DNA of 64,000 bases from Ancylobacter aquaticus. GTDB taxonomy: Bacteria > Pseudomonadota > Alphaproteobacteria > Rhizobiales > Xanthobacteraceae. The stretch lies in the NCBI RefSeq assembly GCF_004339465.1, contig NZ_SMFY01000002.1, forward strand, positions 1,302,001-1,366,000, given 5' to 3'. The position numbers and the translations under genes were made by a program. The notes beneath the pieces are model-generated. The model was not told the DNA's origin. It saw only the letters and a list, made by a program, of their open reading frames with translations, and did no database searches. Positions 32,893 to 55,816 of the stretch are shown one piece after another. Position 1 is the first letter of the stretch. The number at the start of each line of letters is the position of its first letter.

Positions 32893-33831
32893 TCAGAGCC
32901 ATCTGAGCCAGGCATTCCAGTCGGGATGGTGAAACTGGTTCCGCGCCCGCATGTACTTCCACATTCCGTATTTGTGGAAGTCGAAGTCGAGGCTGGAAAC
33001 GGCTTCCTGGATCATCGCCCAGGTCGACCATTTGAGGTCCGCGAGACCCTTCAGCACATTGATCCGCGCCTCGACTTGCCGGCTGACATGACCGAAATAG
33101 GCTTCGGTCATCTCCCGCTCGATGTCGCGGGGAAACGCCATTTCATCGAACCAGCCGGCGAGTTCATAGGCGCGCTCATTGTTCGAGGCGTACTCAAAAT
33201 CGACGATCACCACCTCGTCGGCCTCGTCGATCATGAAATTGCCGGCCAGCGTGTCGTTCATGCAGGGCACGAGGTCCATGCCGGAGGCAAGGAACGCCGC
33301 CTTGGCCTCGGCGCAGCGCTGCATCAGGAAGGGCTGGTCGGCCGGCAGGCGGCCGCCGACCTCGCCTGCCTGGGCCGCGTGCTCCTCGATCATGTCGAAG
33401 ATCGTCTTGGTGAGCCCGAGCGGGGTGCTGTCATTGAAGGCGTGCAGCGCGCGCACCGCGTTGCGGCGAACCGTGGGCCGCAGGAAGTCGAGGGTGGACG
33501 AGGCGCGGAAACCCTCGACGAAGACGAAGATCTCGACGCCGGCCTCGGGAAGGAAATCGACGACTTCCACGCCGAAGCCGCTGGCATGCGCCCTGCGGCT
33601 CGCCTCATGCGCCGCCATCCGGTCGATGAACATCTCGGTGCCGCGCCCCGGCGCCTTGAGGAAGAAATCGCGCGGGCCCCCCTCGTCGATCCGCCAGTTG
33701 GTGTTGCTGATGCCACCGGCAACCGGCCGGTAGCGCAGCGTCCGCCCGTGCCAGCGCGGCGCCCGGGCGAGAATGGCTTCCAGTTCGTGCTCGGCGGCGG
33801 TTTCCGCCGCGCCAAGGGTCTTCCAGGACAT
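32893..33831 (-). CDS. Choline/ethanolamine kinase-like phosphotransferase (APH superfamily), copy 2
   Basis: A 312-residue kinase of the aminoglycoside/choline phosphotransferase fold from ATG 33831. It begins its domain with GGISNTNWRI. The catalytic loop reads PCMNDTLAGNFMID, where the usual His of CHND is Met while the Asp and downstream Asn are kept; the metal Asp is in VIVDFEYASNNERAYEL. The C-terminal FHKYGMW...WLRWL pattern is shared with its neighbour at 33855, so the two arose by tandem duplication. It is the last gene of the carbamoylase operon. Likely phosphorylates a small amino alcohol; substrate unknown. Confidence 0.82.
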   Translation of the reverse strand: MSWKTLGAAETAAEHELEAILARAPRWHGRTLRYRPVAGGISNTNWRIDEGGPRDFFLKAPGRGTEMFIDRMAAHEASRRAHASGFGVEVVDFLPEAGVEIFVFVEGFRASSTLDFLRPTVRRNAVRALHAFNDSTPLGLTKTIFDMIEEHAAQAGEVGGRLPADQPFLMQRCAEAKAAFLASGMDLVPCMNDTLAGNFMIDEADEVVIVDFEYASNNERAYELAGWFDEMAFPRDIEREMTEAYFGHVSRQVEARINVLKGLADLKWSTWAMIQEAVSSLDFDFHKYGMWKYMRARNQFHHPDWNAWLRWL

Positions 33832-33854
33832 CGCGGCCTTCTCCCTCGCCCCGG

Positions 33855-34823
33855 CTACAGCCGGCGGAGCCATGTCTCGAAACCGCGCGTGGCGACCTTT
33901 GAGTGCGCGTGCGACAGACGCCAGGTTCCATATTTGTGGAATTCGATGCCGCGCCGGGGCGTCGATGCCGCGCGGGCGAGGCCCCACAGGCCCCACATCG
34001 TGTCGTCCACGATGCCGTAGAGCCGGCACCTGTTCAGCACGCGCTCGTCGCACGCGCCGGCATAAGCCTCGATCGCCTCGCGCTCGTCCGCCTCGAAACG
34101 GCAAGCCTCGTTGATCAGGGCGCCGACGTCGAACCAGCGGTCATTGTCGCCGGCGAGGTCGAAATCGACGAGAAGGGCATCCCCGGTTTCGTCCTGCAGC
34201 ATGATGTTCGAGGCGACGCCGTCATTGTGGCAGAAGGTGAGGTCGATTCCGCTCGCCTCGATCGCCTGCTGGATCAGCGCGCAACTGGCGACGAGGCGCT
34301 CCGTGTCGTCGGGCAGGAGGGCGCCGGAGGCGGCAACCTCGGCAAAAAGCGAGGCGAGCCGCTCGAACGGATCGAAGCGCACGCCGGTCGGCCCGCCGTC
34401 GTGCAGGGCCTGCTTCGCCGTGAGAACCCTGCCGAGGACCGCCGGGTCCTGCAGATCGCCGACACGGGCATAGCGCCACGGCGTGTCGAGGAAGGCGAGC
34501 GCAAGGACACCCTCCGCCTCGGCGACGACATCAGGGGCAATGCCCAGCCCCGCCGCGTGCCGTGCCGCCTGCGCCGCATGGGGGACGATATCGGCGGCGC
34601 AGTCGGCGTGCCGGATCTTCAGGAAGAGACGGGACCCGTCGTCGAGGTCGAGACGAACGCCATCGGAGGCGACGCCGCGATGCATCGGCGATGCCACCGG
34701 GGCGGCGGCGAGGGCATGGGAGCGGACCCGGCCGGCAAGGTCGGGCAGGAGCACGAGCGCGGCCTCAACACGGACCTCAAAGGGGAGAGTGGAAGCGATC
34801 ACCGCACTGATACCCCGTTCCAT
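33855..34823 (-). CDS. Choline/ethanolamine kinase-like phosphotransferase (APH superfamily), copy 1
   Basis: A 322-residue paralogue of the next gene, from ATG 34823; the open frame back to 35123 lies within the carbamoylase gene. The catalytic loop is canonical, CHNDGVASNIML, with metal Asp in LLVDFDLAGDNDRWFD. The N-terminal lobe is divergent. It overlaps the end of the carbamoylase gene by 25 bases. Both kinases would act in the cytoplasm on related small molecules, perhaps products of the amide-degrading enzymes nearby. Confidence 0.82.
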   Translation of the reverse strand: MERGISAVIASTLPFEVRVEAALVLLPDLAGRVRSHALAAAPVASPMHRGVASDGVRLDLDDGSRLFLKIRHADCAADIVPHAAQAARHAAGLGIAPDVVAEAEGVLALAFLDTPWRYARVGDLQDPAVLGRVLTAKQALHDGGPTGVRFDPFERLASLFAEVAASGALLPDDTERLVASCALIQQAIEASGIDLTFCHNDGVASNIMLQDETGDALLVDFDLAGDNDRWFDVGALINEACRFEADEREAIEAYAGACDERVLNRCRLYGIVDDTMWGLWGLARAASTPRRGIEFHKYGTWRLSHAHSKVATRGFETWLRRL

Positions 34824-36103
34824 TGCGCTGCCCGCTCCGCCACTCCGTCCGATCGGCACAGGCGCAGCGCCGCTTCCAGAAGGACGCAGAAACCCGCCTC
34901 CATAGCGTCCGGTGCGGTGTATTCGCGCTCGCTGTGAGCGATGCCGCCAGCGCTGGGCACAAACACCAGGCCGGTGGGGCACAGGCCCAGCAGGCTGAGA
35001 GCGTCGTGGCCGGACACTGTGTCCAGTTCGATATGCGGCAGGCCGAGCGCGTTGGCGCAGGCCACCACGAGGTCGCGCACCTCGCCCGGCAGCGGCCGGC
35101 CCGGTCGATCGGCCCGCTCGCACCTGCCGATGGCCACCCCCGCGCGCGCCGCCGCGTCCCGTACGGCCTGGGCGGCCAGCGCGCCGGCCTCCCGCAGGAT
35201 GCCGTCCTCAACCGCGCGGATCTCGGCTGACAGGCTCACCTCGCTCGGCACGACATTGGACGAGTTCGGCCGCACGATGAGGCGACCCACCGAGGAATGC
35301 ACGGCGCCGGGCCATCGGTCGGCGACCGCCCGTATCTCCGCGATGAGATAGGCCGCCGCCAGCAGGGCATCCCGCCGGCGCGGCATGGGGGTCGGGCCGG
35401 TATGGGCCGGCTCGCCGTCAAATCGTATGTCGAACTTGGCAGCGCCCCAGTTGCGGCGGACGATGCCAAGTGGGACCCCCGCCTGCTCCAGCGTCACGCC
35501 CTGCTCGACATGGAGTTCGAGGTAGCAGGCCGGCATCTTCGGTGGCGCGTCGCTGCCGCTCTGGCCGATCGCGGCGAGCGCCTCACCGAGCGAGACATCG
35601 TCATCATCGGTGCGGGCGAGAGCATAGGCGGCATCGTGCCGGCCGGCGAAGAAACCGCTTCCCAGCAGGCTCGGCCGAAACCGCGCCCCCTCTTCGTTGG
35701 TCCAGTTTACCGCGCAGAAATCGGCCGAGAAATCCGCCCCTGCCCGCTTATCGGCGATGAGGGCTTCGCCGACGGCGAGGGCTGCCGCCACGCCCAGCGC
35801 ACCATCGAACCGCCCGCCATTGGGTTGGCTGTCGAGATGAGAGCCGAACATGACAAGCGGCGCGTCGTCCTGCGGCGCCAGCGAAAACACGCCATACTGG
35901 TTGCCAACGGCGTCAATGCACACCGTCCCCCCCGCCTGCCGCACGGCGAGATCGAACACGGCGCGCGCCTCCCCGTCGGCCGGGCTGCCGCACAGCCGGT
36001 GGACGCCACCGGCCGGCGTCGCGCCGCAGGCGGCGAAGGCGATGAACAGTTCATGGAAGCGATCGCTCGCGGGATCGCGCGGAAGCAGAGGGGGGACACT
36101 CAC
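34799..36103 (-). CDS. M20 family N-carbamoyl-amino-acid hydrolase (hydantoinase/carbamoylase family amidase)
   Basis: A 434-residue metal-dependent amidohydrolase paralogous to 19657-20925. Shared motifs: FGSHLDSQPNGGRFDGALG and NWTNEEGARFRPSLLGSGFF. The enzyme releases CO2 and ammonia from N-carbamoyl (ureido) compounds. It is the first gene of a minus-strand operon with two choline-kinase-like genes. Its promoter region carries a GTCTAG/CTAGAC inverted repeat (36153-36177) related to boxes before the amide importer and DMFase operons, so it probably belongs to the same regulon. Confidence 0.88.
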   Translation of the reverse strand: MSVPPLLPRDPASDRFHELFIAFAACGATPAGGVHRLCGSPADGEARAVFDLAVRQAGGTVCIDAVGNQYGVFSLAPQDDAPLVMFGSHLDSQPNGGRFDGALGVAAALAVGEALIADKRAGADFSADFCAVNWTNEEGARFRPSLLGSGFFAGRHDAAYALARTDDDDVSLGEALAAIGQSGSDAPPKMPACYLELHVEQGVTLEQAGVPLGIVRRNWGAAKFDIRFDGEPAHTGPTPMPRRRDALLAAAYLIAEIRAVADRWPGAVHSSVGRLIVRPNSSNVVPSEVSLSAEIRAVEDGILREAGALAAQAVRDAAARAGVAIGRCERADRPGRPLPGEVRDLVVACANALGLPHIELDTVSGHDALSLLGLCPTGLVFVPSAGGIAHSEREYTAPDAMEAGFCVLLEAALRLCRSDGVAERAAQWNGVSVR

Positions 36104-36274
36104 GGTATCGACGTTGGCTGTTCTGGAAGGGGCGTGCGACTGGCACCGGGACGTCTAGTTGAAACACATATCTAGACATTTGCAACAGTCATTACCCCGT
36201 CCCGGCCTCGGATCGGGGCGGCTCGCCGACAGGCGGGGTCTGCAACCGGAACTGTACGATGCGACGCGGCGGAT
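36104..36274 (-). promoter_or_regulatory. Promoter region of the carbamoylase-kinase operon with CTAG dyad
   Basis: GTCTAG (36153-36158) and CTAGAC (36172-36177) form an inverted repeat with a 13-bp centre, 50-74 bases upstream of the carbamoylase start. The sequence between them contains TTGAAACACAT. CTAG-containing boxes are otherwise concentrated before the importer (39.9-40.3 kb) and DMFase (45.2-45.3 kb) genes. Confidence 0.5.
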
Positions 36275-37549
36275 TCAGAGACCGACGAGACCACGCGGAT
36301 TGGACGACGCCACCGGCCTGGCCGCCGACACCCGGCTGCTCATCCAGGGCGGATAGACGAAGCGTTCGGTATTGTAGGGCTCCGGCGCGATCATGGAGAG
36401 CGACTTCCGGAAGTCCTGGATCTGATAGAAGATGTGCGGCATCCCAAGCGAGGGATCGTGCGTCACCACGGGATAGGGAACCACCGCCTGCCAGTCGGGA
36501 TGATAGCGGATTGTGCCGTGGACGCTGCGGTAGATCATGCCCTTGAGGGCAAAGGCGACCTTCCGGTTCTGCTCGAAATCGCCCGGCGGGCCGGAGCCAC
36601 CCGCCATGGCGGCGGCGACGGCGTAATGATGCATGTTGCTGTAGGACTGGCACCCGATCGTGGCCGTCGACCCCTCGCCGAAGCGCGCATTGTAGCGGGC
36701 CTCGAAACGCTTGCCCATTTCATCGCGAAGAAGGCCGATCACCGAGGAAACGATGACGCCGTCGCTGGCCTCCTGGGCAATGTCGTTGAAGGTGCGGTGC
36801 ATGGCGCCGTATTGCAGATAGACGATGCAATCCATGGGGTTGGCGCGGAACTGCCGCTGGAAATGCGCGAGGTCGACCGCATAGAAATGGGTATTCGCAA
36901 TCACGGCAGGATTGGTGGAGCGCACTTCCTCAATCACATCGCGCCAGTGATGCGTCGGCGTCTGGACGATCCTCGGCCCGAACGCCACCTCCCAGCCGAA
37001 ATCGGCCGCTGCCTTCGCCATGGAGTTGGCAATGACGATACTGTAGGGCTTCGAGCCCGAGATGATGGCGATCCGGTTGGAGTGGGGCGTCCACTGGCCG
37101 GAATCGCGCAGCCAGGAAATGAACTTAATGAATCCGGGCCCGTACCAGTAATCGGCCGGATCCGCCATGAAGCAGCCGAAATAACGCGCGGGATCGCTCA
37201 TCACGGTGTCGTGGTGCTGCAGCAGCGTATTCGAATGAACGTAGATGATGCCGGCGTCCGCGATAGGCTCGTACTCGGAGTTCTGGGGCCCGATATTATA
37301 GCCGTTGATGATCGCGTGGACGTTGTGCTTCTCGATAAGCCAGCGCGCGGCACTGACGACCTCCTCTGCCGTCTGGCGGCAGGTGTCGGCGAAGATCGGC
37401 TGAATCGGCCGCCCGAACAGCCCGCCGCGGGCATTGAGTTCCTCAACGGCGAGGATCATGCCCTTGCGGAACTCCGCGCCATCCGCCGCCGAAGGACCGG
37501 TGAGCGGCACCATGCTGCCAATGGGCACAGGCTGGTTATGCGCAGTCAC
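36275..37549 (-). CDS. AmiC/FmdD/UrtA-like amide-binding protein without signal peptide (probable cytoplasmic sensor)
   Basis: A 424-residue protein of the Peripla_BP_6 family, closest in style to AmiC and the amide/urea-binding proteins FmdD and UrtA. It starts directly with the first strand (PVPIGSMVPLTGPSAADGAEFRKGM, residues 6 on) and has no signal peptide. The start overlaps the histidine kinase stop by four bases (ATGA), so it is co-translated with a two-component system rather than with a transporter. By analogy to Pseudomonas AmiC, a cytoplasmic amide receptor that controls AmiR, I infer it senses the amide inside the cell and modulates the kinase. No export evidence was seen. Confidence 0.82.
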   Translation of the reverse strand: MTAHNQPVPIGSMVPLTGPSAADGAEFRKGMILAVEELNARGGLFGRPIQPIFADTCRQTAEEVVSAARWLIEKHNVHAIINGYNIGPQNSEYEPIADAGIIYVHSNTLLQHHDTVMSDPARYFGCFMADPADYWYGPGFIKFISWLRDSGQWTPHSNRIAIISGSKPYSIVIANSMAKAAADFGWEVAFGPRIVQTPTHHWRDVIEEVRSTNPAVIANTHFYAVDLAHFQRQFRANPMDCIVYLQYGAMHRTFNDIAQEASDGVIVSSVIGLLRDEMGKRFEARYNARFGEGSTATIGCQSYSNMHHYAVAAAMAGGSGPPGDFEQNRKVAFALKGMIYRSVHGTIRYHPDWQAVVPYPVVTHDPSLGMPHIFYQIQDFRKSLSMIAPEPYNTERFVYPPWMSSRVSAARPVASSNPRGLVGL

Positions 37550-39138
37550 GTGAGGCTTCTCCTGGGCTGGACCGCCGCCGGCTCGCCGACATTCACCAGC
37601 GAGGGCTCGAACAGCAGATTGTGCATCAGCACGCGCAGCCGCGGCGGGCTGACCGGCTTGACCAGCACCGGCAGGCCGGCATTGCGGATGATCTCGATGA
37701 CGCGTGGCTCGGCATCCGCCGTCACGATCATCGCCGGCACCTTGGCCCCGATGGCGGCGCGCAGCCTCTCCACCACGTCGACGCCCATGCGCGCCTTGAG
37801 GTTATAGTCGGCGACGATGAGGCGCGGCGACACCCCGCTTTCGATGAGCCTGATGGCGTCCGCCTCGTCCGCCGCCGGGTGCACCTCCATGCCCCAGCGC
37901 TGCAGCAACTGGGTCATGGTGTGCCGCAGGATGTCGTCATCCTCGACCAGAATGACCGGCGTTCCGACGAACTCGCCGGCGACCGTCTCGCTAATCTCGA
38001 TCTCGTTCGCCTCGCTGTGCCAGATGTTTCCGAGCGGCACTGTGACGGAGAATATCGAGCCGCGCCCGACGTGGGAGCGGAGGCGAATGGGAAGCTCCAA
38101 GAGGTCGGCCAGGCGCTTGACGATATTGAGCCCGAGGCCAAGGCCACTCTTCTGCGCGCGCTGGTCTTCCGCGCGGAAGAACTCGTCGAACACGCGTTCC
38201 CGGTCCTCTTCGCGGACGCCACGCCCCGTATCCACAACCTCGATCCGCAGGCCGTTGGCCTCGCGCCGGCAGCCGACGACGATGCCGCCCACTTCGGTGA
38301 AACGCACGGCATTGGCGACAAAATTGCTCAGGATGCGCTCCAGCAGGGCGCGGTCGGTGGCGATCGTGCCACGCGGTGGGACGAAGACGAGGCGCAGCCC
38401 CTTCTCGCGCGCCTGATGGCGAAACTGCACATCGAGGCGCTCGAACAATTGCGAGAGCTGGAACGAGGTGATGCGCGGCTCGACGCGGCCAGCGTCGAGC
38501 TGGCCGATCTGGAGGAGAGCGCCGAGCAGATCCTCCATGATGGAGGTCGCGATGCCCATGGCGTGCAGCATGTCGGAGCGGTGCTCGGCATCCTCTTCGC
38601 GCAGGCAGTTGTAGACAAGGATCTTGAGCGAGGCGAGCGGCTGGCGCAGATCATGGTTCGCCGCCCGCAGGAAGCGCGACTTGGCCTCATCCGTCGCCTC
38701 GGCGGTTTCCTTGGCGAGTTGCAGCGCACGCTCATTGCTCTTGATAGCGGTGACGTCCGAGAACGACATGGTCATGCCGCCAGAGGCGGTCGGCGCCTGA
38801 GTCAGGTTCAGCACGCTGCCGGTGGCGAACAGGTAATCCTCGCTGCGCTCGGTTGCGAATGCCGCAATCTGCTGGCGCTCCCATGCGTCGGGCTCGACCG
38901 GCAGCACGCATTCGCTCGCATGCGCCATGGTGGCGACGAACGCCTCGAAATCCATGCCGAGGGAGACCGGCAGGTCCCAGCTGCGCCGGAAGCGCTCATT
39001 GGCATAGAGCAGCCGCCGCTCGCGGGACCAGACGAGGATGCCGAAGGGGGCGACGTCCAATCCGGCGAAAATCTCGCCTGGTTGCTCCGATCCGGCAGAA
39101 CCAGGCACATCGGCCACGTCAGACGGACTCCCCCGCAT
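37546..39138 (-). CDS. Soluble PAS hybrid sensor histidine kinase with C-terminal receiver domain
   Basis: About 530 residues from ATG 39138. Order: PAS-like domain (about 25-135), HisKA with phospho-acceptor His162 (ANHDLRQPL), HATPase with N-box (NFVANAVRFTEVG), DTGRGV and GLGLGLNIVKRL, then a receiver domain with phospho-acceptor Asp444 (LIVADYNL) and VLVKPVS. No transmembrane segment is present, so it senses a cytoplasmic signal. It is sandwiched between the response regulator (20-base overlap) and the AmiC-like protein (4-base overlap), which is its probable ligand-sensing partner. Confidence 0.9.
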   Translation of the reverse strand: MRGSPSDVADVPGSAGSEQPGEIFAGLDVAPFGILVWSRERRLLYANERFRRSWDLPVSLGMDFEAFVATMAHASECVLPVEPDAWERQQIAAFATERSEDYLFATGSVLNLTQAPTASGGMTMSFSDVTAIKSNERALQLAKETAEATDEAKSRFLRAANHDLRQPLASLKILVYNCLREEDAEHRSDMLHAMGIATSIMEDLLGALLQIGQLDAGRVEPRITSFQLSQLFERLDVQFRHQAREKGLRLVFVPPRGTIATDRALLERILSNFVANAVRFTEVGGIVVGCRREANGLRIEVVDTGRGVREEDRERVFDEFFRAEDQRAQKSGLGLGLNIVKRLADLLELPIRLRSHVGRGSIFSVTVPLGNIWHSEANEIEISETVAGEFVGTPVILVEDDDILRHTMTQLLQRWGMEVHPAADEADAIRLIESGVSPRLIVADYNLKARMGVDVVERLRAAIGAKVPAMIVTADAEPRVIEIIRNAGLPVLVKPVSPPRLRVLMHNLLFEPSLVNVGEPAAVQPRRSLT

Positions 39139-39817
39139 TGAACCGGCCGATGGCATAATGCACGGCGGCGGAGCGGTCCCGGATGTTGAGCTTGCGCATG
39201 GCATTGCCCAGGTGAACGCGCACGGTCTGGCTGCTGAGTTCGTATTCCTCGGCGATCCGCTTCACCGAATAGCCGCGCCCGAGCAGGCCGAGCACATCGC
39301 GCTCGCGCGGGGTCAGAAGGTCGAGTTCGTCGCGGAGCTCATCAGCAGGCGGGGCCGGCACCGCGCTCACCGGCGCCGCCGGAATCCTCGCGACGGGCCG
39401 CGACAGGCTGCTGCCGGCAGAGCGCTCGATGATCCGGCGCGGGAAACTCACCTCCCCGGCCAGCACCCGTTCGAGCGCGCGCTCGATCTCCGAGCCGCCG
39501 GCGGACTTCGGCACATAGCCGATGACGCCGTGTTCCACGGAGCGCAGCACGTGATCGACATCCTCATGGACGGAAACCACCACCACCGGCACATCGGGAA
39601 AATTCGTCCGCAGCTTGTGCAGACCGTCGAAGGCATCGAAGCCGGGCATGACCAGATCAATCAGCACGAGGTCGATGTCGGGGTGCGCAAGCAGCAGCGC
39701 CGACGTCTCGTCGAAGGTCTCCGCCTCGAAGATTTCGAGCTTCTGACGCAGGCGACGCATGACCTGCTTCAGCGATTGGCGGACCACCCAATGGTCATCG
39801 GCGATGAGAATCTTCAT
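39119..39817 (-). CDS. NarL/FixJ-family response regulator
   Basis: A 232-residue regulator from ATG 39817; an upstream in-frame start would add 20 unlikely residues. Receiver domain with Asp54 (VLIDLVMPGFD) and KSA segment; a Pro/Ala-rich linker (about 140-160); then a LuxR-type helix-turn-helix (LTPRERDVLGLLGRGYSVKRIAEEYELSSQTVRVHLGNAM, about 167-208, in several pieces). First gene of the RR-kinase-AmiC-like operon and divergent from the amide importer. It is the obvious candidate to bind the CTAG boxes in the 530-bp gap and at 36.15 and 45.28 kb. Confidence 0.92.
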   Translation of the reverse strand: MKILIADDHWVVRQSLKQVMRRLRQKLEIFEAETFDETSALLLAHPDIDLVLIDLVMPGFDAFDGLHKLRTNFPDVPVVVVSVHEDVDHVLRSVEHGVIGYVPKSAGGSEIERALERVLAGEVSFPRRIIERSAGSSLSRPVARIPAAPVSAVPAPPADELRDELDLLTPRERDVLGLLGRGYSVKRIAEEYELSSQTVRVHLGNAMRKLNIRDRSAAVHYAIGRFNAGESV

Positions 39818-40350
39818 ATGCCAGCAATCGCTGCTTCCGACGGTCGTCCATGCCCTTGGGACGCGAAACGGCGTCAATCGAGCGTGCTTGGTCTCAATCC
39901 TAGATACGCACCTTCTGTCACGATTGCGACACTATTTAAAGGGGGCCGACGAAAAAGCGCTAGCGATCCGCGTCCCGTCGCCTCCTCTTCTCGACGCTCT
40001 AGCGATTGACGAAACGTCTAGCCCATCCGCCAGACAAAAATGATGGCCGATCGACACGCCCGTCGCTCCCGCCACCGAGGCGAGAGGATGGAGCGACGGC
40101 CGCGGACAGCGGTGAGGCATGCAAAAAACGCTTATTATCAAGGCATTTGGTCACATATTGGTCGACACTGTGACGCGAGCGCATGCAGTTTTTAATCGCC
40201 ACAAGAAACTTTGATAACCCAGACGAAAAGGCGTTGACGCCGCCTTCGCACTCAACTTATCATCTAGATGATTAGTCTAGTGACGAATAAACACGTCCGG
40301 ACGAGCAGTTGAGTTGCCAGTCAACACGGGATGTCCGAAGGGTCGCAGAC
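39818..40350. promoter_or_regulatory. 530-bp divergent control region with clustered CTAG boxes and importer promoter
   Basis: No convincing gene lies here. It holds six CTAG tetramers (39900, 39960, 39999, 40018, 40264, 40277), unusually dense for such a GC-rich window. GACGAAAAAGCGCTAG (39948-39963) and GACGAAACGTCTAG (40008-40021) resemble each other; the 17 bases at 40005-40021 recur exactly at 45279-45295. A sigma70-like promoter for the importer is TTGACG (40234-40239), an 18-bp spacer, TATCAT (40258-40263), with the palindrome ATCTAGAT (40262-40269) and GTCTAG (40275-40280) at the expected start. Confidence 0.65.
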
Positions 40351-41658: not shown

Positions 41659-41666
41659 CACGCAAA

Positions 41667-41694
41667 GGGCCCGGCGGCACGCGTCGCCGGGCCC
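41667..41694 (+). terminator. Strong hairpin after the binding-protein gene
   Basis: GGGCCCGGCG (41667-41676) pairs perfectly with CGCCGGGCCC (41685-41694) around an 8-base loop, nine bases after the urtA-like stop. No U-tract follows. It likely protects or partly terminates the transcript so that the binding protein outnumbers the membrane components. Confidence 0.6.
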
Positions 41695-41765
41695 CTGCCG
41701 CATTCCACGCCTGTACGCGCCACGGCCGCGCAGAGGCCCCGCAAGGGCTCAACGGATAAGGTTCT

Positions 41766-42641
41766 ATGGATCTGAGTTCGCTCCTGAATGCGCTCATCCT
41801 CGGCGTCAGCATCGCCAGCATCTGGCTGATCGCCGCTCTCGGCCTGACGATCATCTATGGGACGGCGGGCGTCATCAACATGGCGCATGGCGAACTGATC
41901 ATGCTCGGCGCCTATAGCTCCTACATGCTCCAGTTCCATCTGGGCCTGCCCTATCTGCTGTGCCTGCCGGCCTCCTTCGTCATCGTTGCGCTGGTGGGGC
42001 TGGCGCTGGAGCGCGGCTTGATCCGTTATCTCTACAACCGTCCATTGGACACATTGCTGGCCACCTACGGCGTCTCGCTGGTGCTGATGCAGGGGGTGCG
42101 TCTGATCTTCGGCAGCGATCCGAAATATCTCGCGGTGCCGGAAATCTTCCAGAGCAACGTGATGCTCGGCTCGGTGTCGCTTTCCGCGTTCCGCATCGTG
42201 GTCGTCGCGGTCACGGCGCTGCTGGTGATCGGGCTGTGGCTGCTGTTCTACAAGACGCGCTACGGGGTCCAGGTGCGTGCCGTCATGCAGAACAAGGAGA
42301 TGGCGGCGTCGTTCGGCATTAATGCCGGTCGCATCTACATGCTCACCTTCGCGCTTGGAGCCGGGCTTGCCGGCGTGGCGGGCGCGCTGTTCGGCGTGCT
42401 GGCGATCGTCCTGCCCACCATGGGAGCGAGCTATGTCGTTCAGGCTTTCCTCATGGTGGTCGTCGGCGGTGGCTCGCTGGCCGGCAGCGTGGTGGCGAGC
42501 GGCGTGACGGGCGAGCTTCAGTCGGTGTTCGCCTTCTTCACCAACGACACCTTCGCCCGATTCATCATTTTCGTGCTGATCGTGATCTTCCTGCGGTTCC
42601 GTCCGCAGGGCCTGTTTGCACAGGCGGGAGCCCGGCGATGA
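41766..42641 (+). CDS. urtB: Urea/amide ABC transporter permease (UrtB/LivH type)
   Basis: A 291-residue branched-chain-type permease with eight or so hydrophobic helices. Family segments: LGLTIIYGTAGVINMAHGELIMLGAY and LGAGLAGVAGALFGV. Typical urea UrtB proteins are much longer because of an N-terminal extension; this one is the short LivH/FmdE form. First membrane component after the binding-protein gene. Confidence 0.88.
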   Translation: MDLSSLLNALILGVSIASIWLIAALGLTIIYGTAGVINMAHGELIMLGAYSSYMLQFHLGLPYLLCLPASFVIVALVGLALERGLIRYLYNRPLDTLLATYGVSLVLMQGVRLIFGSDPKYLAVPEIFQSNVMLGSVSLSAFRIVVVAVTALLVIGLWLLFYKTRYGVQVRAVMQNKEMAASFGINAGRIYMLTFALGAGLAGVAGALFGVLAIVLPTMGASYVVQAFLMVVVGGGSLAGSVVASGVTGELQSVFAFFTNDTFARFIIFVLIVIFLRFRPQGLFAQAGARR

Positions 42642-42685
42642 ACGCCGCCGCCGTCAGCCACGCAGCGTCAGGACGGTTCTGAAAT

Positions 42686-48394: not shown

Positions 48395-48411
48395 CCCCTC
48401 GGGCGAAACTG

Positions 48412-48443
48412 CCGGCACGCGCGTCCCCCCGCGTGCGTGCCGG
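48412..48443 (+). terminator. GC-rich hairpin after DMFase large-subunit gene
   Basis: CCGGCACGC (48412-48420) pairs with GCGTGCCGG (48435-48443), with further inner GCG/CGC pairing, followed by GGCCTTTC. It lies 17 bases after the DMFase stop and before the Rieske-like gene, so downstream genes may be expressed at a lower level. Confidence 0.5.
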
Positions 48444-48466
48444 GCCTTTCTCGCAGGACGCCGGAC

Positions 48467-49558
48467 ATGACCCATAGACGCGATCTCGGTTACTGGGATG
48501 AGGGCCGCAATCTCGCGGAGGCGTCCTTCTATGCCGAAGCGCTCGGCCCGGACCCGCGCGTGCTCTCTCCCCTCGCCTTCCGCTCGCTGCGGTTCAGCCA
48601 GCTTGAGGACGAGGCGGTCTGGACGCGCGACTGGGTCTGTGTCGGCTCTCATGAAGCCATCCCGGAAAAGGGCGACCTGCTTCCTTTCACCGTTGGCACG
48701 CACGGCGTGCATGTGCAGCGCACGGAGGGCGGAATCGTCGCCCGGTTCAACAAGGCGCAGCATGGCGGCTGCCGCGCGGTGCCGCTGCAGTGCCAGACCG
48801 GCGCCAAGACCAAGTGCTCCTTCACTTCCTGCGGCTACAGCCGCGACCGGGGCGCGATCCCGGCCAGCGAGCTTGGCGACGGCACGCCGGAGATGCACCA
48901 ATATCTTGGCCTGCGCCCGGAGCGCCTGTTGACCGCGCAGGCCCGCAGCTGGGGCCCGCTGATCTTCGTCAATCTCGACATCGCCCCCGCCTGGCCCGAC
49001 GCGGAGCTTGCCGTGCTTGGCCGAACGGGGGCGTTCTTCGGCCCTCACAAGCCCCGTCGCTCGCCCGAGACCTGGCTCGAATACGCCGCGAACTGGAAGC
49101 TGATGGGCCAGTCCCTGGCCGCCGGCGAGCGGGTGATGTCCGACAGCGATACCTGGATGCTCGCCGAGACAACCCTGACCGACGGCACGGCGGCGCGCGC
49201 GGCCTGGCTGTTTCCCAACCTTGTCCTGATCGCCACGCCGGCGAGCACCGCCGTGGTAACGCTGCAACCGACCTCCATGGGGCAAACCCTGTGCCGGCTC
49301 TCGACCTACGGGGCTGACCCGCATCGCGACCTGCCATTCTGGCGCGCGCAGATCGGGCACCGTGCCGCGCAGGCCGAGGCCGAGCATGACGATCTGGCCC
49401 GCTGGGGCACCCAACACCGCCCGCAGACCATCGGCGCCGCGCTGCCGCGCCAGAGCGAGGCGGCGGGAGGCTGGATGCAGCGCGCCCTGGCGGCACGCCT
49501 GGCGCGACTGCCGCACGACGAATTCCCGCAACCGCTTTACCAGAACCCGAGAGGCTGA
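48467..49558 (+). CDS. Rieske-oxygenase-like protein with lost cluster and catalytic ligands (pseudoenzyme)
   Basis: A 363-residue protein from ATG 48467, organised like a ring-hydroxylating oxygenase alpha subunit. The Rieske motif aligns with canonical spacing, CxH-x17-CxxH, but reads Ala97-x-His99 then Cys117-x2-Thr120, so one Cys and one His ligand are gone. In the C-terminal half, NWKL (209-212) is followed by GQSLAAGE, without the His pair that binds catalytic iron in this family, although LFPNLVLIATP is recognisable. It cannot be a normal oxygenase. Extra cysteines (Cys102, 109, 122) are nearby. Sits between DMFase and Sel1 genes; role unknown, perhaps structural or metal-chaperone-like. 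Confidence 0.8.
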   Translation: MTHRRDLGYWDEGRNLAEASFYAEALGPDPRVLSPLAFRSLRFSQLEDEAVWTRDWVCVGSHEAIPEKGDLLPFTVGTHGVHVQRTEGGIVARFNKAQHGGCRAVPLQCQTGAKTKCSFTSCGYSRDRGAIPASELGDGTPEMHQYLGLRPERLLTAQARSWGPLIFVNLDIAPAWPDAELAVLGRTGAFFGPHKPRRSPETWLEYAANWKLMGQSLAAGERVMSDSDTWMLAETTLTDGTAARAAWLFPNLVLIATPASTAVVTLQPTSMGQTLCRLSTYGADPHRDLPFWRAQIGHRAAQAEAEHDDLARWGTQHRPQTIGAALPRQSEAAGGWMQRALAARLARLPHDEFPQPLYQNPRG

Positions 49559-49562
49559 GGAC

Positions 49563-50261
49563 ATGCTGTCGCTGGATCTCTCGACCACCAACGCAACCCC
49601 GCTCGATGCCGGCATCGCGCTGTATGAGCGCGGCGATTACCCCGAGGCGCTGCGCCTGTTCTCGCGGCTGGCCGGAGAGGGTGATGCGGACGCCAAGACA
49701 TGGCTCGGCGCCATGCACGCCAATGGCGAGGGGATCGACGCCTCTCTGGCCCGCGCCTTCGCGCTCTATCTGGAGGCGGCGCAGGCTGGCATCGTGCTGG
49801 CCCAGACCAATGTCGGGGCGATGCTGGCGATGGGGCACGGCGTGCCCCGCGACATTCCGGCCGGCGTGCTCTGGCTGGAAAAGGCGGCCGGGAGCGGCGA
49901 CCTTTTCGCCCAGTACAATCTGGCCACGCTGCTGTCGAAGGGCGAAGGACTCCCCCCAGACTATGCGGCCGCCGCGCATTGGTACAGGTCGGCGGCGGAG
50001 CGCGGCCACTACCCGTCGCAGGCGCGCCTCGGCTTCCTGTATGCGAACGGCCTGGGCGTGACGAAGGACCGCGTCGAAGCGTTCACCTGGCTGTCGCTGG
50101 CGGCCCAGCATGGCGTAGGAACCGCCCTGACGGCACTTGAGGCGATCGTGGCGCAGATGTCGTCCGATGAGAAGCAGGCCGGGAACGCCGCCGTTGGGCG
50201 CTGGCGCGGCCGCACGCCCGACGCCTCGCGCCATGCGCGCCTCAATCCCGTTCACGGGTGA
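49563..50261 (+). CDS. Sel1-like (tetratricopeptide-type) repeat protein
   Basis: A 232-residue soluble protein from ATG 49563, four bases after the Rieske-like stop. About four 36-residue Sel1 units can be laid out from residue 37 to 180, each with a W/N-LG-x-hydrophobic start, a G-x-G turn and an A-hydrophobic-W/Y-x2-A-A end (for example WYRSAAERG, WLSLAAQHG). No signal peptide. Sel1 proteins scaffold protein complexes, so it may assemble the DMFase, Rieske-like protein or urease. Specific role unknown. Confidence 0.8.
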   Translation: MLSLDLSTTNATPLDAGIALYERGDYPEALRLFSRLAGEGDADAKTWLGAMHANGEGIDASLARAFALYLEAAQAGIVLAQTNVGAMLAMGHGVPRDIPAGVLWLEKAAGSGDLFAQYNLATLLSKGEGLPPDYAAAAHWYRSAAERGHYPSQARLGFLYANGLGVTKDRVEAFTWLSLAAQHGVGTALTALEAIVAQMSSDEKQAGNAAVGRWRGRTPDASRHARLNPVHG

Positions 50262-50265
50262 CGGC

Positions 50266-50589
50266 ATGGTGTTCAGCCCGCAGCAGGTCAAGTTTGAATT
50301 CCTGAGCTACATCAAGGAATTCGGCGGCAAGCCGGCGGAATGGTGCGTCGGCTGCGCCGACGATGCCGCGCTGGCGCTGTTCGACCGCCATGGCGTCGAT
50401 CCCGCACGCGACATCTGGCTGTGGAAGCCGACCTTGTCGAAGGCGGCGGCGCGCATCGTATTTCGCTATCTGACCGAGCAGCTCCACATGCCCGCCGCCG
50501 ACGAGGGTGCGGGACGTTGCATCTATCTGTTCAGGCGCGGTCTGGTGGAGAACGGCGTGCCGATGCCCGCGCGACCGGGAGACGCCTGA
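50266..50589 (+). CDS. Small conserved-looking protein of unknown function
   Basis: A 107-residue protein from ATG 50266, four bases after the Sel1 gene stop. I do not recognise a family. Visible features are a WCVGC pair of cysteines near residue 25-29, an aromatic-rich centre (DIWLWKPTLSKAAARIVFRYL) and a basic C-terminus. No signal peptide or membrane span. The tight placement suggests it works with the Rieske-like and Sel1 proteins between DMFase and urease. Confidence 0.6.
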   Translation: MVFSPQQVKFEFLSYIKEFGGKPAEWCVGCADDAALALFDRHGVDPARDIWLWKPTLSKAAARIVFRYLTEQLHMPAADEGAGRCIYLFRRGLVENGVPMPARPGDA

Positions 50590-50719
50590 TGCAGCAGATG
50601 ACCCGCCCGGCACGGCTTATCCACCCCTGTCCTTGCCTCACTCCCCGGCATGGCTGGCCATCGCGCCAATGCGCACTAGGATGCCGGACCGGCACCTCTT
50701 CGTTCTCGGAAAGCTGACC

Positions 50720-51187
50720 ATGTTGCTTGTCAATCGCGTACTGGGCCATCGACTGGATGACGGCTTCGCGGAACAGCTTCATCATCTGGAGCACCATGGC
50801 GAGGTCGAGTGGCTACTTCTCCCCGCTGCTGAACTGGCGCGGCGGCGGTTCCGCGCTGTGACGAGCCGGGGTGCCGAGGTGGCGGTCGCCCTGCCGCGAG
50901 ACGAGCCGTTGACCGACGGCGCGGTGCTGCTGTTCGAGCCGAACCGGGCGATCGTGGTGAAGGTGGATGCCGAGCGCTGGCTGCGGATCACGCCGCACGA
51001 TCTCGCGACCGCACTGGAGCTCGGCTATCACGTCGGCAACCTGCACTGGCGGGTGCGTTTCGCGGCAGGCTCCATCGACGTCGCGCTTGAGGGGCCGGAA
51101 GAGGCCTATCTGGCGCGCCTCGCCTCGCTCGGTCTCGACAGCCGGGTCGAGGCGCATGCCCACCCGGCCGACGAGGCGCCATGCTGA
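50720..51187 (+). CDS. ureE: Urease accessory protein UreE (nickel metallochaperone)
   Basis: A 155-residue UreE from ATG 50720; the open frame extends further upstream without UreE sequence. N-terminal and C-terminal domains of UreE are recognisable (LAYELGNLHW-like motif appears as ATALELGYHVGNLHWRV near residue 94-110). The nickel-binding His tail is short (EAHAHP at about 146). It delivers Ni to the apo-urease. First gene of the urease cluster and overlapping ureF by seven bases. Confidence 0.85.
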   Translation: MLLVNRVLGHRLDDGFAEQLHHLEHHGEVEWLLLPAAELARRRFRAVTSRGAEVAVALPRDEPLTDGAVLLFEPNRAIVVKVDAERWLRITPHDLATALELGYHVGNLHWRVRFAAGSIDVALEGPEEAYLARLASLGLDSRVEAHAHPADEAPC

Positions 51188-51864
51188 GCCTTTTCGCAAC
51201 GCTGTGGCAGGCGGATTCGGCGTTCCCAAACGGGGGATTTGCCTTTTCCAACGGTATCGAAGGACTGGCCGACCTTGGCCAGAGGCTGGATCGCGAGGGG
51301 CTGACCAACGTCCTCGCCATGGCGCTCACCCATCGCTGGATGGGCATGGACCGCATCGCCGTGTCGCTGGCGTTCGCGGCCGCCGACGACATGGACCGCC
51401 TCGCCGAGATTGATCTTCGGTTCGACGCGGCGACCATCCCCGCCCTGCAGCGGGCGGGATCGCGGCGAAACGGGCTGGGCCTGCTCACCGCCCATGCCCG
51501 GCTTGGCACAGGTGCGGCTGCGGAAATGAAGCGACAGGTCGAGACCGGCCGGATGCGCGGGCACCTTCCCGTAATCCAGGGCGCGGTCTGGCGGGCCTGC
51601 GGCATGGACGAAACCTCCGTGCTCGCCGCCTCCGCCTATACCGCTGTCACCGGCATGACCAGCGCCGCCGTCCGTCTCAGCCTAATCGGCGCGGTGGAGG
51701 CGCAAAGCTGCCTGCGCGCGACACTGCCGCTGATGGCGCGACTGGTGGACGACGCAGGGCGCGCCGGCCCTCTCACATGCGACGATTTCGAGAGCCTGAC
51801 CCCGATGCTCGACATTGCCACCATGCGGCATGCGACATCGGAGGTCCGGCTGTTCTCGAACTGA
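51181..51864 (+). CDS. ureF: Urease accessory protein UreF
   Basis: A 227-residue UreF. The family N-terminus is clear ([22 protein letters not shown]; usual SDSALPVGxFxHSxGLE). UreF bridges UreD and UreG during nickel insertion. The C-terminus ([23 protein letters not shown]) matches the usual family end. Overlaps ureE; the fused ureAB gene follows after 28 bases. Confidence 0.87.
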
Positions 51865-51892
51865 TGACGCTCCCCTCCGCAGGAAGAAACTC

Positions 51893-52576
51893 ATGCTCCT
51901 GACCCCGACGGAACTTGAACGTCTGACGATCTTCACGGCGGCGGAACTGGCCCGCAAGCGCCGGGCGCGCGGGCTGAAGCTCAACCATCCCGAGGCGGTC
52001 GCGCTGATCACCGACGAGATATTGGAGGGCGCGCGCGACGGGCGCAGCGTGGCGGAGATGATGGGCTTCGGCTCGACGATCCTGAGCACGGACGATGTCA
52101 TGCCCGGCGTGGCGTCGCTGATCCCCATCCTCCAGGTCGAGTGCGGCTTCCGCGACGGCACCAAGCTTGTCACCATCCACGAGCCCATCCGTCCGCGCGA
52201 GGGGGCGGATGCGGACACGCTGGAGCCGGGCGCGCTGCTGCCGCTGGACGGCGAGATCGAGCTCAATGCCGGACGCGAACGCACCGAAATCACCGCCGTC
52301 AACACCGGCGACCGGGCGATCCAGATCGGCTCCCACTTCCACTTCTTCGAGGTGAACAAGGCGCTCGAATTCGACCGGGCGAAAGCCTATGGCAAGCGGC
52401 TCGACATACCCGCCGGCACGGCCGTGCGCTTCGAGCCCGGCCAGAGCAAGACGCTGGTGCTGGTGGCTTTCGGCGGCGATCGCAAGATCAGCGGTTTCAA
52501 CAATCTCAGCGACGGCACCGATGATCGCGACGCCGCGCTGCGCCGGGCCCGCGACGGCGGTTTCAAGGGAGCCTGA
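51893..52576 (+). CDS. ureAB: Urease gamma-beta fusion subunit
   Basis: A 227-residue protein from ATG 51893 joining a gamma subunit (residues 1-100: [27 protein letters not shown] in pieces, [28 protein letters not shown]) and a beta subunit (about 115-227: [41 protein letters not shown]). Separate ureA and ureB are commoner in proteobacteria; the fusion resembles Helicobacter and some actinobacterial second ureases. It forms the structural platform for UreC. Confidence 0.93.
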
Positions 52577-52578
52577 CC

Positions 52579-54291
52579 ATGGTCACGATGCTGCGCAGGG
52601 ACTATGCCCACATGTATGGGCCGACGGTCGGCGACGGGATAAGGCTGGGTGACACCTCGCTGGTGGCCGTGGTCGAGAAGGACCACACGGTCTATGGCGA
52701 CGAGTGCCTGCACGGCGGCGGCAAGACGCTGCGCGACGGCGCGGGCCTCGCCGCCGGCGTGACCTCCAAGGAGGGCGCGCTCGACATGCTGCTGTGCAAT
52801 GTCGTGGTGATCGACGCCGTGCTCGGCGTGGTAAAGGGCGACCTCGGCATCAAGGACGGCAAGATCGTCGGCCTCGGCAAGGCCGGCAATCCGGCAATCA
52901 TGGACGGCGTCGATCCCCGCCTCATCGTCTCGCAGGGAACCACCGTCCGCGATTGCGAGGGGCTGATCGCCACCGCCGGGGCGATCGACGTGCATGTGCA
53001 TTTCGACAGTGCCGGTCTTGTCGAGCACGCCATATCGAGCGGCATCACCACCATGATCGGCGGCTCGCTAGGCCCCATCACCGTGGGAATCGATTCCGGC
53101 GGGCCCTTCAACACCGGCAAGATGCTGCAGGCCGCCGAGCAGTGGCCGATGAACTTCGGCTTTCTCGGCCGAGGCAACAGCCATAAGCCGGCTTCACTGG
53201 TCGAACAGATGCGCACCGGCTGCCTCGGCCTGAAACTGCATGAGGACTGGGGCTCGATGCCGGCGCCCATCGACACCTGCCTGCGCGTGGCCGACGAGCT
53301 CGACTTCCAAGTGCAGATCCATACCGACACGCTGAACGAGAGCGGGTTTCTGGAGGACACGCTGGCGGCCATCGGCGGGCGCACCATCCACATGTACCAC
53401 ACCGAGGGTGCCGGCGGCGGCCATGCGCCCGATATCATCCGGGTGGCGGGCATCAGCAACTGCCTGCCCTCGTCGACCAACCCGACAAACCCCTACACGG
53501 TCAACACCTTCGACGAGCACCTCGACATGACGATGGTGTGCCACCACCTCAACCCGGCCATCCCCGAAGATGTGGCCTTCGCTGAAAGCCGCATCCGCCC
53601 GCAGACCATCGCGGCCGAGGACGTGCTGCACGATCTCGGGGCGATCTCGATGCTGGGCTCCGACAGCCAGGGAATGGGACGCATCCACGAGGTGATCTGC
53701 CGGACATGGCAGCTCGCCTCGAAGATGAAGGACCAGCGCGGGCTGCTGCCGGAGGACCAACCGGGCCTCGGCGACAATGCCCGCATCCGGCGCTATATCG
53801 CCAAATACACCATCAACGCCGCCCGCAGTTTCGGCATCGCCGCGCATATCGGCTCGCTCGAAGACGGCAAGATGGCGGATATCGTCATCTGGCGACCGGG
53901 CTTCTTCGGCATCAAGCCGGAGCTGGTCGTGAAGGGCGGCTTCATCGCCTGGGGCGCCATGGGCGACAGCGCCGCCTCGCTGATGACCTGCGAGCCGATC
54001 ATGATGCGCCCGCAATGGGGCGCCTTCGGCCGCGCCGCGCCGGCGCTTTCCGCCTGCTTCGTGCATCCTCTGGCGATCGAGGACGGGATCGGCCGGACGC
54101 TCGGCCTTTCCAAGGCGCTGCTGCCGGCCAGCGGCACCCGCACGCTGACCAAGCAGGACATGCTCCACAATGCCGCGTGCCCGGATATCCGCGTCGATCC
54201 GCAAACCTTCGAGGTGTTCGTCGACGGCACGCTGGCGACCTGCGAGCCCTATGACACGCTTCCTCTCGCACAGCGGTACATGCTGCGATGA
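52579..54291 (+). CDS. ureC: Urease alpha (catalytic) subunit, divergent type
   Basis: A 570-residue UreC, two bases after ureAB. All nickel ligands map onto Klebsiella urease: His139/His141 (134/136), carbamylated Lys219 (217), His248 (246), His274 (272), Asp362 (360), with flap Cys321-His322 (319/320) and general features like LPSSTNPT. However, the segment between His141 and Lys219 is three residues shorter, and the near-invariant ICPQQ and ATTCTPG stretches are replaced by FDSAG and VGIDSGG. This region borders the urea pocket. Metal chemistry should work; substrate range may differ from plain urea. Confidence 0.92.
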
Positions 54292-54938
54292 ACATGATCG
54301 ACAATCAGCGGGCCAAAGAGGCGACGGGACACGCGGTGGCGGCGCGGGTCGGGATCGGCGGGCCGGTCGGTTCCGGCAAAACGGCCCTGATCGAAGCCCT
54401 CATCCCCGTCCTGCACGCACGCGGCGTCGACCTCGCGGTGGTGACGAACGATCTCGTCACCAAGGAGGACGCCGAACGCCTTCGACGCTCCGGGCTCATC
54501 GATCCGCAGCGCGTGGCAGCCGTCGAGGCGGGCGCGTGCCCGCATACGGTGATCCGCGAAGACCCGACCTTGAACATTGCGGCGGGCGACGAATTGGAGG
54601 CGCGTTTTCCTGGCGTCGAGCTCATTCTGTTCGAGTCCGGGGGCGACAATCTCGCTTCCACCTTTTCGCTCGATCTGGTGGACTGGTGGATCTTCGTCAT
54701 CGATGTCGCGGGAGGCGACGACATTCCGCGCAAGAAGGGGCCCGGAACGCTGCGCTGCGATCTCCTGGTCATTAACAAGCAGGATCTCGCCCCACATGTC
54801 GGCGTCGACCTGCCGCGCATGCTGGAAGAGGCGCGGTCCGTTCGCGCGCAACGGCCGGTGATCCTGACCGACGCCCGGCGCGGTGACGGGGTGGGCGATG
54901 TCGCCGACCAGATCATGAAGGCGGTGCTGTTTCGATGA
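54288..54938 (+). CDS. ureG: Urease accessory GTPase UreG
   Basis: A 216-residue SIMIBI GTPase overlapping ureC by four bases. P-loop [15 protein letters not shown] (about 23-37), the metal-binding CPHT ([12 protein letters not shown]) and GTP-binding [11 protein letters not shown] are intact. No His-rich N-terminal extension. It powers nickel insertion together with UreE, UreF and UreD. Confidence 0.93.
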
Positions 54939-55816
54939 ACGTCGCGCTCGACCGATCCGACTTCTTGTCACCCGCGGGGACGGATCCAATGCCGGGCGCC
55001 TGTCGCGACGTGACGGCAGCGCTCGACTTTGCGCGCGGTGGGGGACGCACCGTGCTGACGCGCCAGCACGTGCCTTATCCCTTCCACATCACCCGGCCGT
55101 TTGCGCTCGATCGCACCCTGCCGGAACTGGCCACACTCTATCTCCAATCTTCCTCCGGCGGGCTGTACCGTGGCGACCGGCTGCGGCTCGACCTACGGGC
55201 CGGCGCCGGCGCCATGGCGCACCTCACAAGCCAGGCGGCGACCGTCATTCACCGCACGCCGGCGGCTCCCGCTCGGCTTTCGACCTCGATCACCGCCGGC
55301 GCGCGCTCGTTCCTGGCATTGACCAACGATCCCTTCATTCTGTTTCCCGAGGCGGGCTTCGTCTCGTCCATGGAGATAACGGTGGCGCCGGATGCCCGCG
55401 TCATCGTCTCCGATGGCTTTGCCTCACACGACCCGGAAGCGCGGAGCCGCCCCTTTGAGCGACTTGAGACACGCACGCGCATTTGCGGTCCGGACGGAGG
55501 CCTGATCGCGACGGATCGCGGAAGCCTGAGCGGCTTGGACTTCGCCGGAGGCGGTTCGCCTCTGGGGCCGTATCGCGCCATGGGCAGCATGCTGGTACTC
55601 GGCCCACGCCTCGGCGAGATCGACCCGCATCGTCTGACGACCGAGATGGAGGCGCTCGGTTGTTGCGCCGGCATAAGCGAATTGCCGAATGGCGGCGGAT
55701 TGATCTTACGCTGCCTCGCCCTCACCGGGGGGCATCTGGCCCAGGGCATGGATTACCTGTTCGTCCTCACCTTCATGGCACTGATGGGCGAAAGGCCAGC
55801 CCGGAGACGGAAGTAA
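54935..55816 (+). CDS. ureD: Urease accessory protein UreD/UreH
   Basis: A 293-residue UreD scaffold protein, overlapping ureG by four bases. Family segments: [38 protein letters not shown] in pieces, and [13 protein letters not shown]. It binds apo-urease and recruits UreF/UreG. Last gene of the urease cluster; no dedicated nickel or urea channel gene follows, in keeping with the importer upstream supplying substrate. Confidence 0.88.

Follow-up and report, generated by a model that had tools for sequence, protein, structure and literature searches.

Positions 32,893–55,816 of the window, the whole 64,000-nucleotide stretch of Ancylobacter aquaticus DNA analyzed here (contig NZ_SMFY01000002.1, positions 1,302,001–1,366,000), hold an island of genes that is well supported as a system to sense, import, and hydrolyze a small amide, because its gene set is conserved, an operator-like site accompanies it, and an amide-operon context recurs elsewhere. 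On sequence grounds, the island is made up of members of named families. Two of its enzymes, one of the N,N-dimethylformamidase (DMFase) type and a urease, are each without a residue feature that in their family is tied to substrate or catalysis, and both the 'DMFase' and the 'urease' probably have altered substrates. That these genes form a regulated unit for the catabolism of one small amide or a few, acting through the steps proposed below, is held with slightly better than even confidence. The first-pass annotation of the island had named an N-substituted urea or ureido-amide as the substrate of such a system; the small-amide system stands, and a substrate of that particular kind is possible, if improbable.

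The island consists of two divergent blocks, on the minus strand (32893–39817) and the plus strand (40351–55816), that flank the interval 39818–40350. All of the genes named by the first-pass annotation in both blocks are present, each as an open frame with coding-like GC content at third codon positions, a family match, or conservation elsewhere:

32893–33831, minus strand: kin1, APH/choline-kinase-like kinase (Pfam PF01633/PF01636)
33855–34823, minus strand: kin2, APH/choline-kinase-like kinase (Pfam)
34799–36103, minus strand: M20 hydrolase of the hydantoinase/carbamoylase family (PF01546; TIGR01879, 272 bits; NF006772, 442 bits)
36275–37549, minus strand: signal-less periplasmic-binding-protein homologue, presumed sensor (PF13458)
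37546–39204, minus strand: PAS-HisKA-HATPase-receiver hybrid kinase, soluble (Pfam; hydropathy)
39119–39817, minus strand: LuxR-type response regulator (Pfam PF00072 and PF00196)
40006–40020, plus strand: operator-like 15-mer TTGACGAAACGTCTA, between the two blocks
40351–41658, plus strand: importer binding protein (PF13433; UrtA model, 340 bits, cut-off 493)
41766–42641, plus strand: permease 1 (UrtB model, above cut-off)
42686–43786, plus strand: permease 2 (UrtC model, above cut-off)
43795–44541, plus strand: ATPase 1 (UrtD model, just above cut-off)
44538–45242, plus strand: ATPase 2 (UrtE model, just above cut-off)
45280–45294, plus strand: operator-like 15-mer TTGACGAAACGTCTA, ~144 bp upstream of dmfS, with the same letters as at 40006
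45424–45864, plus strand: dmfS, DMFase small-subunit-like (no Pfam match; in 78/80 loci; 63% to the pAMI5 small subunit)
45998–48394, plus strand: dmfL, DMFase large-subunit-like iron hydrolase (PDB 6lvb, E 5.7e-151)
48467–49558, plus strand: Rieske-fold protein with the Rieske ligands lost (fold model; own invariant His and four Cys)
49563–50261, plus strand: Sel1-repeat protein (Pfam PF08238, 117 bits, cut-off 30.7; in 80/80 loci)
50266–50589, plus strand: 107-aa uncharacterised protein of the M.YSVQQIKFEF family (in 79/80 loci)
50669–51187, plus strand: ureE (Pfam)
51181–51864, plus strand: ureF (Pfam)
51893–52576, plus strand: ureAB, fused gamma/beta subunits (Pfam; NCBIfam NF009671)
52579–54291, plus strand: ureC, nickel urease-type alpha subunit with an altered substrate pocket (Pfam; alignment; tree)
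54288–54938, plus strand: ureG (Pfam; TIGR00101, above cut-off)
54935–55816, plus strand: ureD (Pfam)

The genes from dmfS to ureD overlap or are spaced by at most about 140 bp, so a single transcript across them is plausible.

A search anchored on the Rieske-like protein and covering genomes of 84,980 species gave 95 stretches encoding a relative, of which the best 80 were taken as loci. Many of the flanks end at contig ends, such that the counts of neighboring genes are lower bounds. A DMFase large subunit and a Sel1 gene accompanied the Rieske-like gene in every locus (dmfL at ≥70% identity, 80/80; Sel1, 80/80), a grouping to which the first-pass annotation had drawn attention and which is conserved across many genera, beyond close relatives. 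The small subunit occurred in 78 of the 80 loci, the two exceptions lying where a contig starts, and the M.YSVQQIKFEF protein in 79 (75 by pattern and four more found afterwards), with the lone locus without it stopping at a contig end. By the first pattern, the complete five-gene cassette was found in either of two orders in 73 loci, as dmfS-dmfL-rsk-sel1-unk (n = 61) or dmfS-dmfL-rsk-unk-sel1 (n = 12). The island's importer binding protein was present in 53/80 loci (≥55% identity), a sensor kinase or sensor binding protein in 18, an AmiR-like protein in 13, and AmiE in nine. The most highly conserved enzymes were dmfL (median 81%) and UreC (median 80%, 24 loci), and the Rieske-like, Sel1, and M.YSVQQIKFEF proteins had median identities of 47–55%. 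By record title, carriers included Xanthobacter, Ancylobacter, Methylopila, Hansschlegelia, Hyphomicrobium, Methylobacterium, Methylorubrum, Methylocella, Methyloversatilis, Caballeronia, Pseudomonas, Stutzerimonas, Salinisphaera, Roseovarius, marine metagenome-assembled genomes (MAGs), and one Acidobacteria-labelled MAG; the cassette is frequent in methylotrophs and occurs in marine MAGs. Two further genes recurred near the cassette, a CbbQ/NirQ/NorQ-type AAA ATPase (L014:1572-2408; Pfam; five loci) and a 578-aa protein without an NCBIfam match (L076:11872-13608; six loci).

Within the order (397 genomes; thresholds of ≥75% for both proteins), the island's type of UreC was found in 29 genomes, dmfL in 22, and both in 20 (Fisher p = 9e-25), an association that persisted when collapsed to genera (11 of the 13 genera with dmfL were shared, p = 4e-11). 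In 16 of the 20 shared genomes the two genes were on one contig, 4.2–22.5 kb apart, and in the other four (G769, G401, G461, G739) on separate contigs. One genome of the same genus, G459, had neither gene.

The dmfL product aligns over its full length with the large subunit of the Paracoccus N,N-dimethylformamidase DmfA1A2 (6lvb; pAMI2), shares its Fe ligands, and is likewise preceded by a small-subunit gene, but it is 37% identical, carries N547D, and has the Rieske-like, Sel1, and M.YSVQQIKFEF companions. With residue roles assigned after the consulted part of PMC7686228, the Fe ligands Y399, Y440, and E521, along with H519 and F693, were kept in 78/78 ortholog frames (≥70% identity, chosen without a motif overlapping the active site), and N547, which a figure legend of that paper describes as essential, was replaced by D in all 78. 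By sequence, DmfS and DmfL would make up an iron amide hydrolase of the DMFase type with an intact iron site and the class-wide N547D, and because that replacement is class-wide a substrate other than N,N-dimethylformamide (DMF) is likely. The large subunit also matches a second named enzyme, N-acetyl-(R)-beta-phenylalanine acylase (8i5a; E 7e-111), whose name refers to a bulky N-acyl beta-amino acid; the likeness is drawn from the sequence match. Among 40 of 77 records listed, DMFA2-type large subunits (~35–42% identity) occurred on numerous plasmids of Agrobacterium and Rhizobium and also in a haloarchaeon. Gene context was viewed for one Rhodococcus plasmid, which carried such a subunit with AmiS/UreI, and for the two Paracoccus plasmids.

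Another account, in which the island would degrade DMF or N-methylformamide (NMF) in the ordinary way with a hitch-hiking urease, is very unlikely. It is consistent with the conserved Fe ligands of dmfL and with the DMFase substrate range given in the available portion of PMC7686228 (DMF, NMF, NEF, and formamide), but it has to contend with the class-wide N547D, a linkage to the island's type of urease that is far from random, and the behavior of an ortholog in Paracoccus aminophilus. This pAMI5 protein is 70% identical to dmfL and lies in a unit of the island's kind, where regulator, kinase, and binding-protein genes are divergent to small-subunit, large-subunit, Rieske-like, and M.YSVQQIKFEF genes, followed by an AmiS/UreI channel; the binding protein matches that of the island importer at 48%, and no urease was annotated in the 32 kb fetched around the locus. 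In the consulted part of PMC4543880, no link between the pAMI5 ortholog locus and DMF use was found and a strain without pAMI2 was unable to use DMF. As the ortholog is reported to have no link to DMF use, the DMFase label for dmfSL is unjustified, and the suggestion of the first-pass annotation that the substrate is something other than plain DMF draws support from the same partially consulted report.

The urease was examined at its pocket residues (Klebsiella aerogenes numbering) in two overlapping sets, the 120 closest relatives of 8,000 scored and 24 UreC frames from the loci, which were chosen by a CHHL motif and in which C319–H321 is therefore kept by selection. The nickel ligands H134, H136, K217, H246, H272, and D360 were kept in 120/120 relatives and 24/24 loci frames, and H219, D221, C319, H320, and R336 are also kept. 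In all members of both sets, the A167 loop (GPITVGID) is shorter by three residues and has V at the aligned position 167, and A363 is replaced by G (GSDSQGMGR). As given in an excerpt of PMC7433671, the amino groups of urea are held by the backbone carbonyls of Ala170 and Ala366, which correspond to A167 and A363. The altered pocket would fit a substrate other than urea, such as an N-alkylurea or a simple amide. A phylogenetic tree split 18 canonical-type rows, with the long loop and A363, from the altered UreC at 100/99 support; the tree included the pocket columns, and an HEDW filter removed 10 of the 40 UreC fetched, the altered paralogs L109, L110, L113, L116, and L118–L120 as well as L112, L115, and L117. 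The genome's own canonical urease (C1:1958000-1977900), whose gene set adjoins an importer that passes the UrtA model, has a UreC 57% identical to that of the island, the same nickel and catalytic residues, and ureEFGD; the island urease differs from it in the shorter A167 loop, A363G, amide-type operon genes, and an importer binding protein below the UrtA cut-off.

The company kept by the altered urease where dmfL is lacking (nine genomes) bears on its substrate. In six of them (L087, L091–L095) AmiR-like and importer genes lie ahead of the altered urease genes, with an AmiC-like binding protein beyond AmiR in four of the six, and in L088 importer genes and AmiE are nearby. In L087, L091, and L095, AmiE immediately precedes ureE, whereas it lies ~2.6 kb upstream in L088 and past ureD in L093; the family representative, the L062 copy, scores above its NCBIfam cut-off (688 vs 427). 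Because these genomes pair it with AmiR, the importer, and AmiE, the altered urease appears to follow amide systems and not one particular amidase, a context that points to short amides generally. In the proposed role, this nickel urease-type enzyme, whose metal site is intact by sequence and whose urea-binding positions are changed, would act on a small amide or an N-substituted urea, with urea not the main substrate.

Other paralogs with altered pockets were encountered among the UreC proteins. L107 (G649:C2:297142-298845) and L108 represent a urease-like paralog with another pocket (HPHFDSVQQ, GPKT---VGIECPG, GSDSQGVGR), the G649 copy of which is ~11 kb from dmfL. In L103, L111, L109, L110, L113, L116, and L118–L120 the nickel ligands are kept with G at 363 and shorter loops, and L109 and L110 are without the flap Cys319. 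The paralogs with G at 363 are an unnamed radiation beside canonical urease.

The Rieske-like protein was modelled with the fold of a quaternary-ammonium Rieske oxygenase (CntA; Foldseek E 1.2e-15, TM 0.62). The first-pass annotation had called it a dead Rieske protein, which is correct as to the [2Fe-2S] ligands (C-x-H...C-x2-H in 0/120 relatives) and incomplete in that, unlike the oxygenase alpha subunits, it has its own invariant His and four Cys. These residues (H100, C103, C110, C118, and C123) were invariant in 82/82 rows (80 loci, the window, and pAMI5), an invariance that in the 80 loci is partly by selection since the fetch patterns included parts of the motif (FN.AQHGG, CSFT.CG.S); the full motif was found independently of those patterns in 110/120 database relatives. 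Residues 99–127 had low model confidence yet are the most conserved part of the protein, as would fit a metal missing from the model. The Rieske-like gene was beside dmfL in 22/22 dmfL genomes and occurred in 0/9 of the altered-UreC genomes without dmfL, on which basis it may be a helper of dmfSL. Because the Rieske-fold, Sel1, and YSVQQIKFEF proteins all travel with dmfSL, they are proposed to be dedicated helpers in its assembly or metal handling; for the last, no fold relative was matched in the PDB at E ≤ 0.001. A more specific, tentative proposal is that the urease belongs to a separate class of nickel amidohydrolases that does not use urea, and that the site of its partner iron hydrolase is built or guarded by the re-ligated Rieske protein (His and four Cys), Sel1, and YSVQQIKFEF, in a pathway that would employ both metals on an N-substituted amide or urea of natural origin.

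On the sensing side, the minus-strand binding protein has no N-terminal hydrophobic segment and the hybrid kinase no membrane-like stretch, both by hydropathy. The first-pass annotation had described a signal-less amide-binding protein, and the lack of a signal stands; the AmiC structure (1pea) was absent from the 11 matches of the protein, so an AmiC identity was rejected. Its nearest solved structure was 3h5l, and 1pea matched the importer binding protein instead. The CTAG boxes earlier described as shared by the two blocks include the 15-mer TTGACGAAACGTCTA, identical at 40006 and 45280. A scan for TWGACG-N3-CGTCWA (≥11 of the 12 specified positions) returned 15 sites in 434 kb (the window and the 18 loci with a sensor kinase or sensor binding protein) and five in the remaining 62 loci (1.14 Mb), two of the five being in L010 and L011, which were counted as kinase-less although a regulator is present. 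The 15-mer, at ≤1 mismatch and 142–168 bp before the dmfS match, was found in 12 of 20 other regulator-holding loci; a palindrome with a spacing of 4 gave no signal at the dmfS promoter, as opposed to a spacing of 3. In the proposed mechanism, the cytosolic binding-protein homologue would pass a ligand signal to the soluble kinase and the LuxR-type regulator, which would act at TTGACG-N3-CGTCTA sites before both blocks. The logic is that of the Pseudomonas aeruginosa-type AmiC/AmiR/AmiE operon (ligand sensor, regulator, importer or channel, and amidase), whereas the island uses a binding protein of another family, a LuxR-type regulator, and a kinase. In Methyloversatilis (L065), AmiR is divergent to dmfS in place of the LuxR-type regulator; this copy has Pfam AmiR_N and ANTAR and matches AmiR of PDB 1qo0. 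The own genome also has amiC-like, amiR-like, and amiE genes far from the island (C6:117500-137400; L147), with no urease within the 20 kb fetched around them.

The importer passed the cut-offs for UrtB–E (305/250, 320/296, 311/304, and 290/286 bits), and its binding protein, which by eye has a twin-arginine-like start, scored below that for UrtA (340 vs 493), compared with 559 for the canonical UrtA of the same genome. Urt-like transporters beside AmiE or FmdA have been inferred to carry amides (consulted parts of PMC3098086 and PMC13209695), and from its family and context the island's Urt/Fmd-type importer would take in the amide. Taken with the AmiE, AmiR, and AmiS/UreI neighbors, the binding protein's failure of the UrtA model favors a small-amide substrate.

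Several results weigh against a small-amide unit with a urease of altered substrate. The V and G substitutions need not abolish contacts with urea, because backbone carbonyls make them, and the altered UreC passes the NCBIfam equivalog model for urease alpha (TIGR01792, 808 vs 680 bits); with the cut-off passed and every checked catalytic residue kept, it may still hydrolyze urea. In G421 and G461 no canonical UreC was found at E 1e-120, leaving the altered urease as the sole one found. Urease genes were inside the fetched flank in 30/80 loci, among them L013, which has another paralog. A thinner draw from the class (385 genomes; UreC ≥75%, dmfL ≥74%) gave a weaker link, with UreC in eight genomes (one partial), dmfL in five, and both in four. 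Within the order sample, altered UreC occurred without dmfL in 9/29 genomes and dmfL without altered UreC in 2/22, so the two are not strictly dependent, and two of the dmfL-less genomes (L089, L090) show only weak importer traces near the altered urease. Seven of the 12 loci with a site upstream of dmfS are Methylobacterium and two Methylopila; the 12 loci therefore do not amount to 12 independent cases.

Part of this evidence also suits broad scavenging of amides and urea, in which the importer would carry short amides and urea, dmfSL or AmiE would split the amides, and the altered urease would be a second, amide-induced urease for urea itself. The score above the urease-alpha cut-off and the kept nickel and catalytic residues agree with such a role, as does the title of Mills 1998 (cited in PMC10781810), on an Fmd system carrying short-chain amides and urea. 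Scavenging is nonetheless considered rather unlikely, given that both urea-binding positions are changed in 120/120 closest relatives, that a canonical UreC gene is present as well in 27 of the 29 carriers (in one of them broken, the partial G755 copy with two stops), and that the importer binding protein is below the UrtA cut-off which the genome's other one exceeds.

The carbamoylase and kinases are the looser part of the island. The M20 hydrolase passes both TIGR01879 (272 vs 204 bits) and NF006772 (442 vs 424 bits), and the families of the carbamoylase and two kinases were named correctly at first pass, but they rarely travel with the cassette: kin1 was near it in 7/80 loci and M20 in 4/80, a fifth M20 (L066, ~39%) falling just below threshold. 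These genes matter for the version of the first-pass annotation in which dmfSL, urease, and carbamoylase would break down a single N-substituted urea or ureido-amide in successive steps. A363G may give room beside the amino groups of urea, the title of Dixon 1980 (cited in PMC7433671) reports urease action on N-methylurea, and M20 was present in four of the seven loci with kin1. The gene for the formaldehyde-activating enzyme was in 15/22 dmfL genomes compared to 8/58 controls (p = 5e-6), which would suit a methylated substrate, though the controls were part of the order sample and unmatched for phylogeny, which confounds the methylotroph enrichment. With M20 and the kinases not found near the cassette in most of the 80 loci, and the altered urease elsewhere with AmiE in the absence of dmfL, the stepwise route is improbable and the small-amide unit is preferred. 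Also in keeping with a methylated substrate, beside the cassette in L057, L059, L079, and L083 are glutamine-amidotransferase and glutamate-synthase-like genes, which we take to resemble N-methylglutamate synthase; glutamine-synthetase-family and ammonium-transporter genes are also near the cassette in L057.

Around the island, the upstream region 19657–30673 holds another M20 hydrolase, a phosphotriesterase-family protein, ABC genes, and an amidase-signature enzyme. An open frame just past ureD (55940–56434) by eye resembles a piece of an IS3-type transposase and has no Pfam match at 1e-10. No known RNAs, including riboswitches, reached Rfam gathering thresholds at 30000–58000.

A table in PMC2680597, consulted in part, has the entry 'urease-like operon'. 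In open-licence PubMed Central, nothing joined 'dimethylformamidase' and 'urease', which does not establish absence from print; the listings of dimethylformamidase papers there held no description of the gene set, and under urease-like and paralog terms no title or beginning of an abstract named the altered-urease clade. A search of the same collection for 'methylurea', 'urease', and 'methylotroph' matched fungal work alone.

Urease is a textbook nickel enzyme that is usually annotated by homology, and what is known of the DMFase family comes mainly from pollutant degradation. Since proteins that pass the urease model have changed urea-binding positions, amide genes for company, and in most cases a canonical urease alongside, some annotated 'second ureases' may carry the wrong name. 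The dmfL clade suggests a natural, widespread role for the DMFase family with three unexplained companions, among which the Rieske-fold protein is an oxygenase scaffold bearing a new invariant set of Cys and His.

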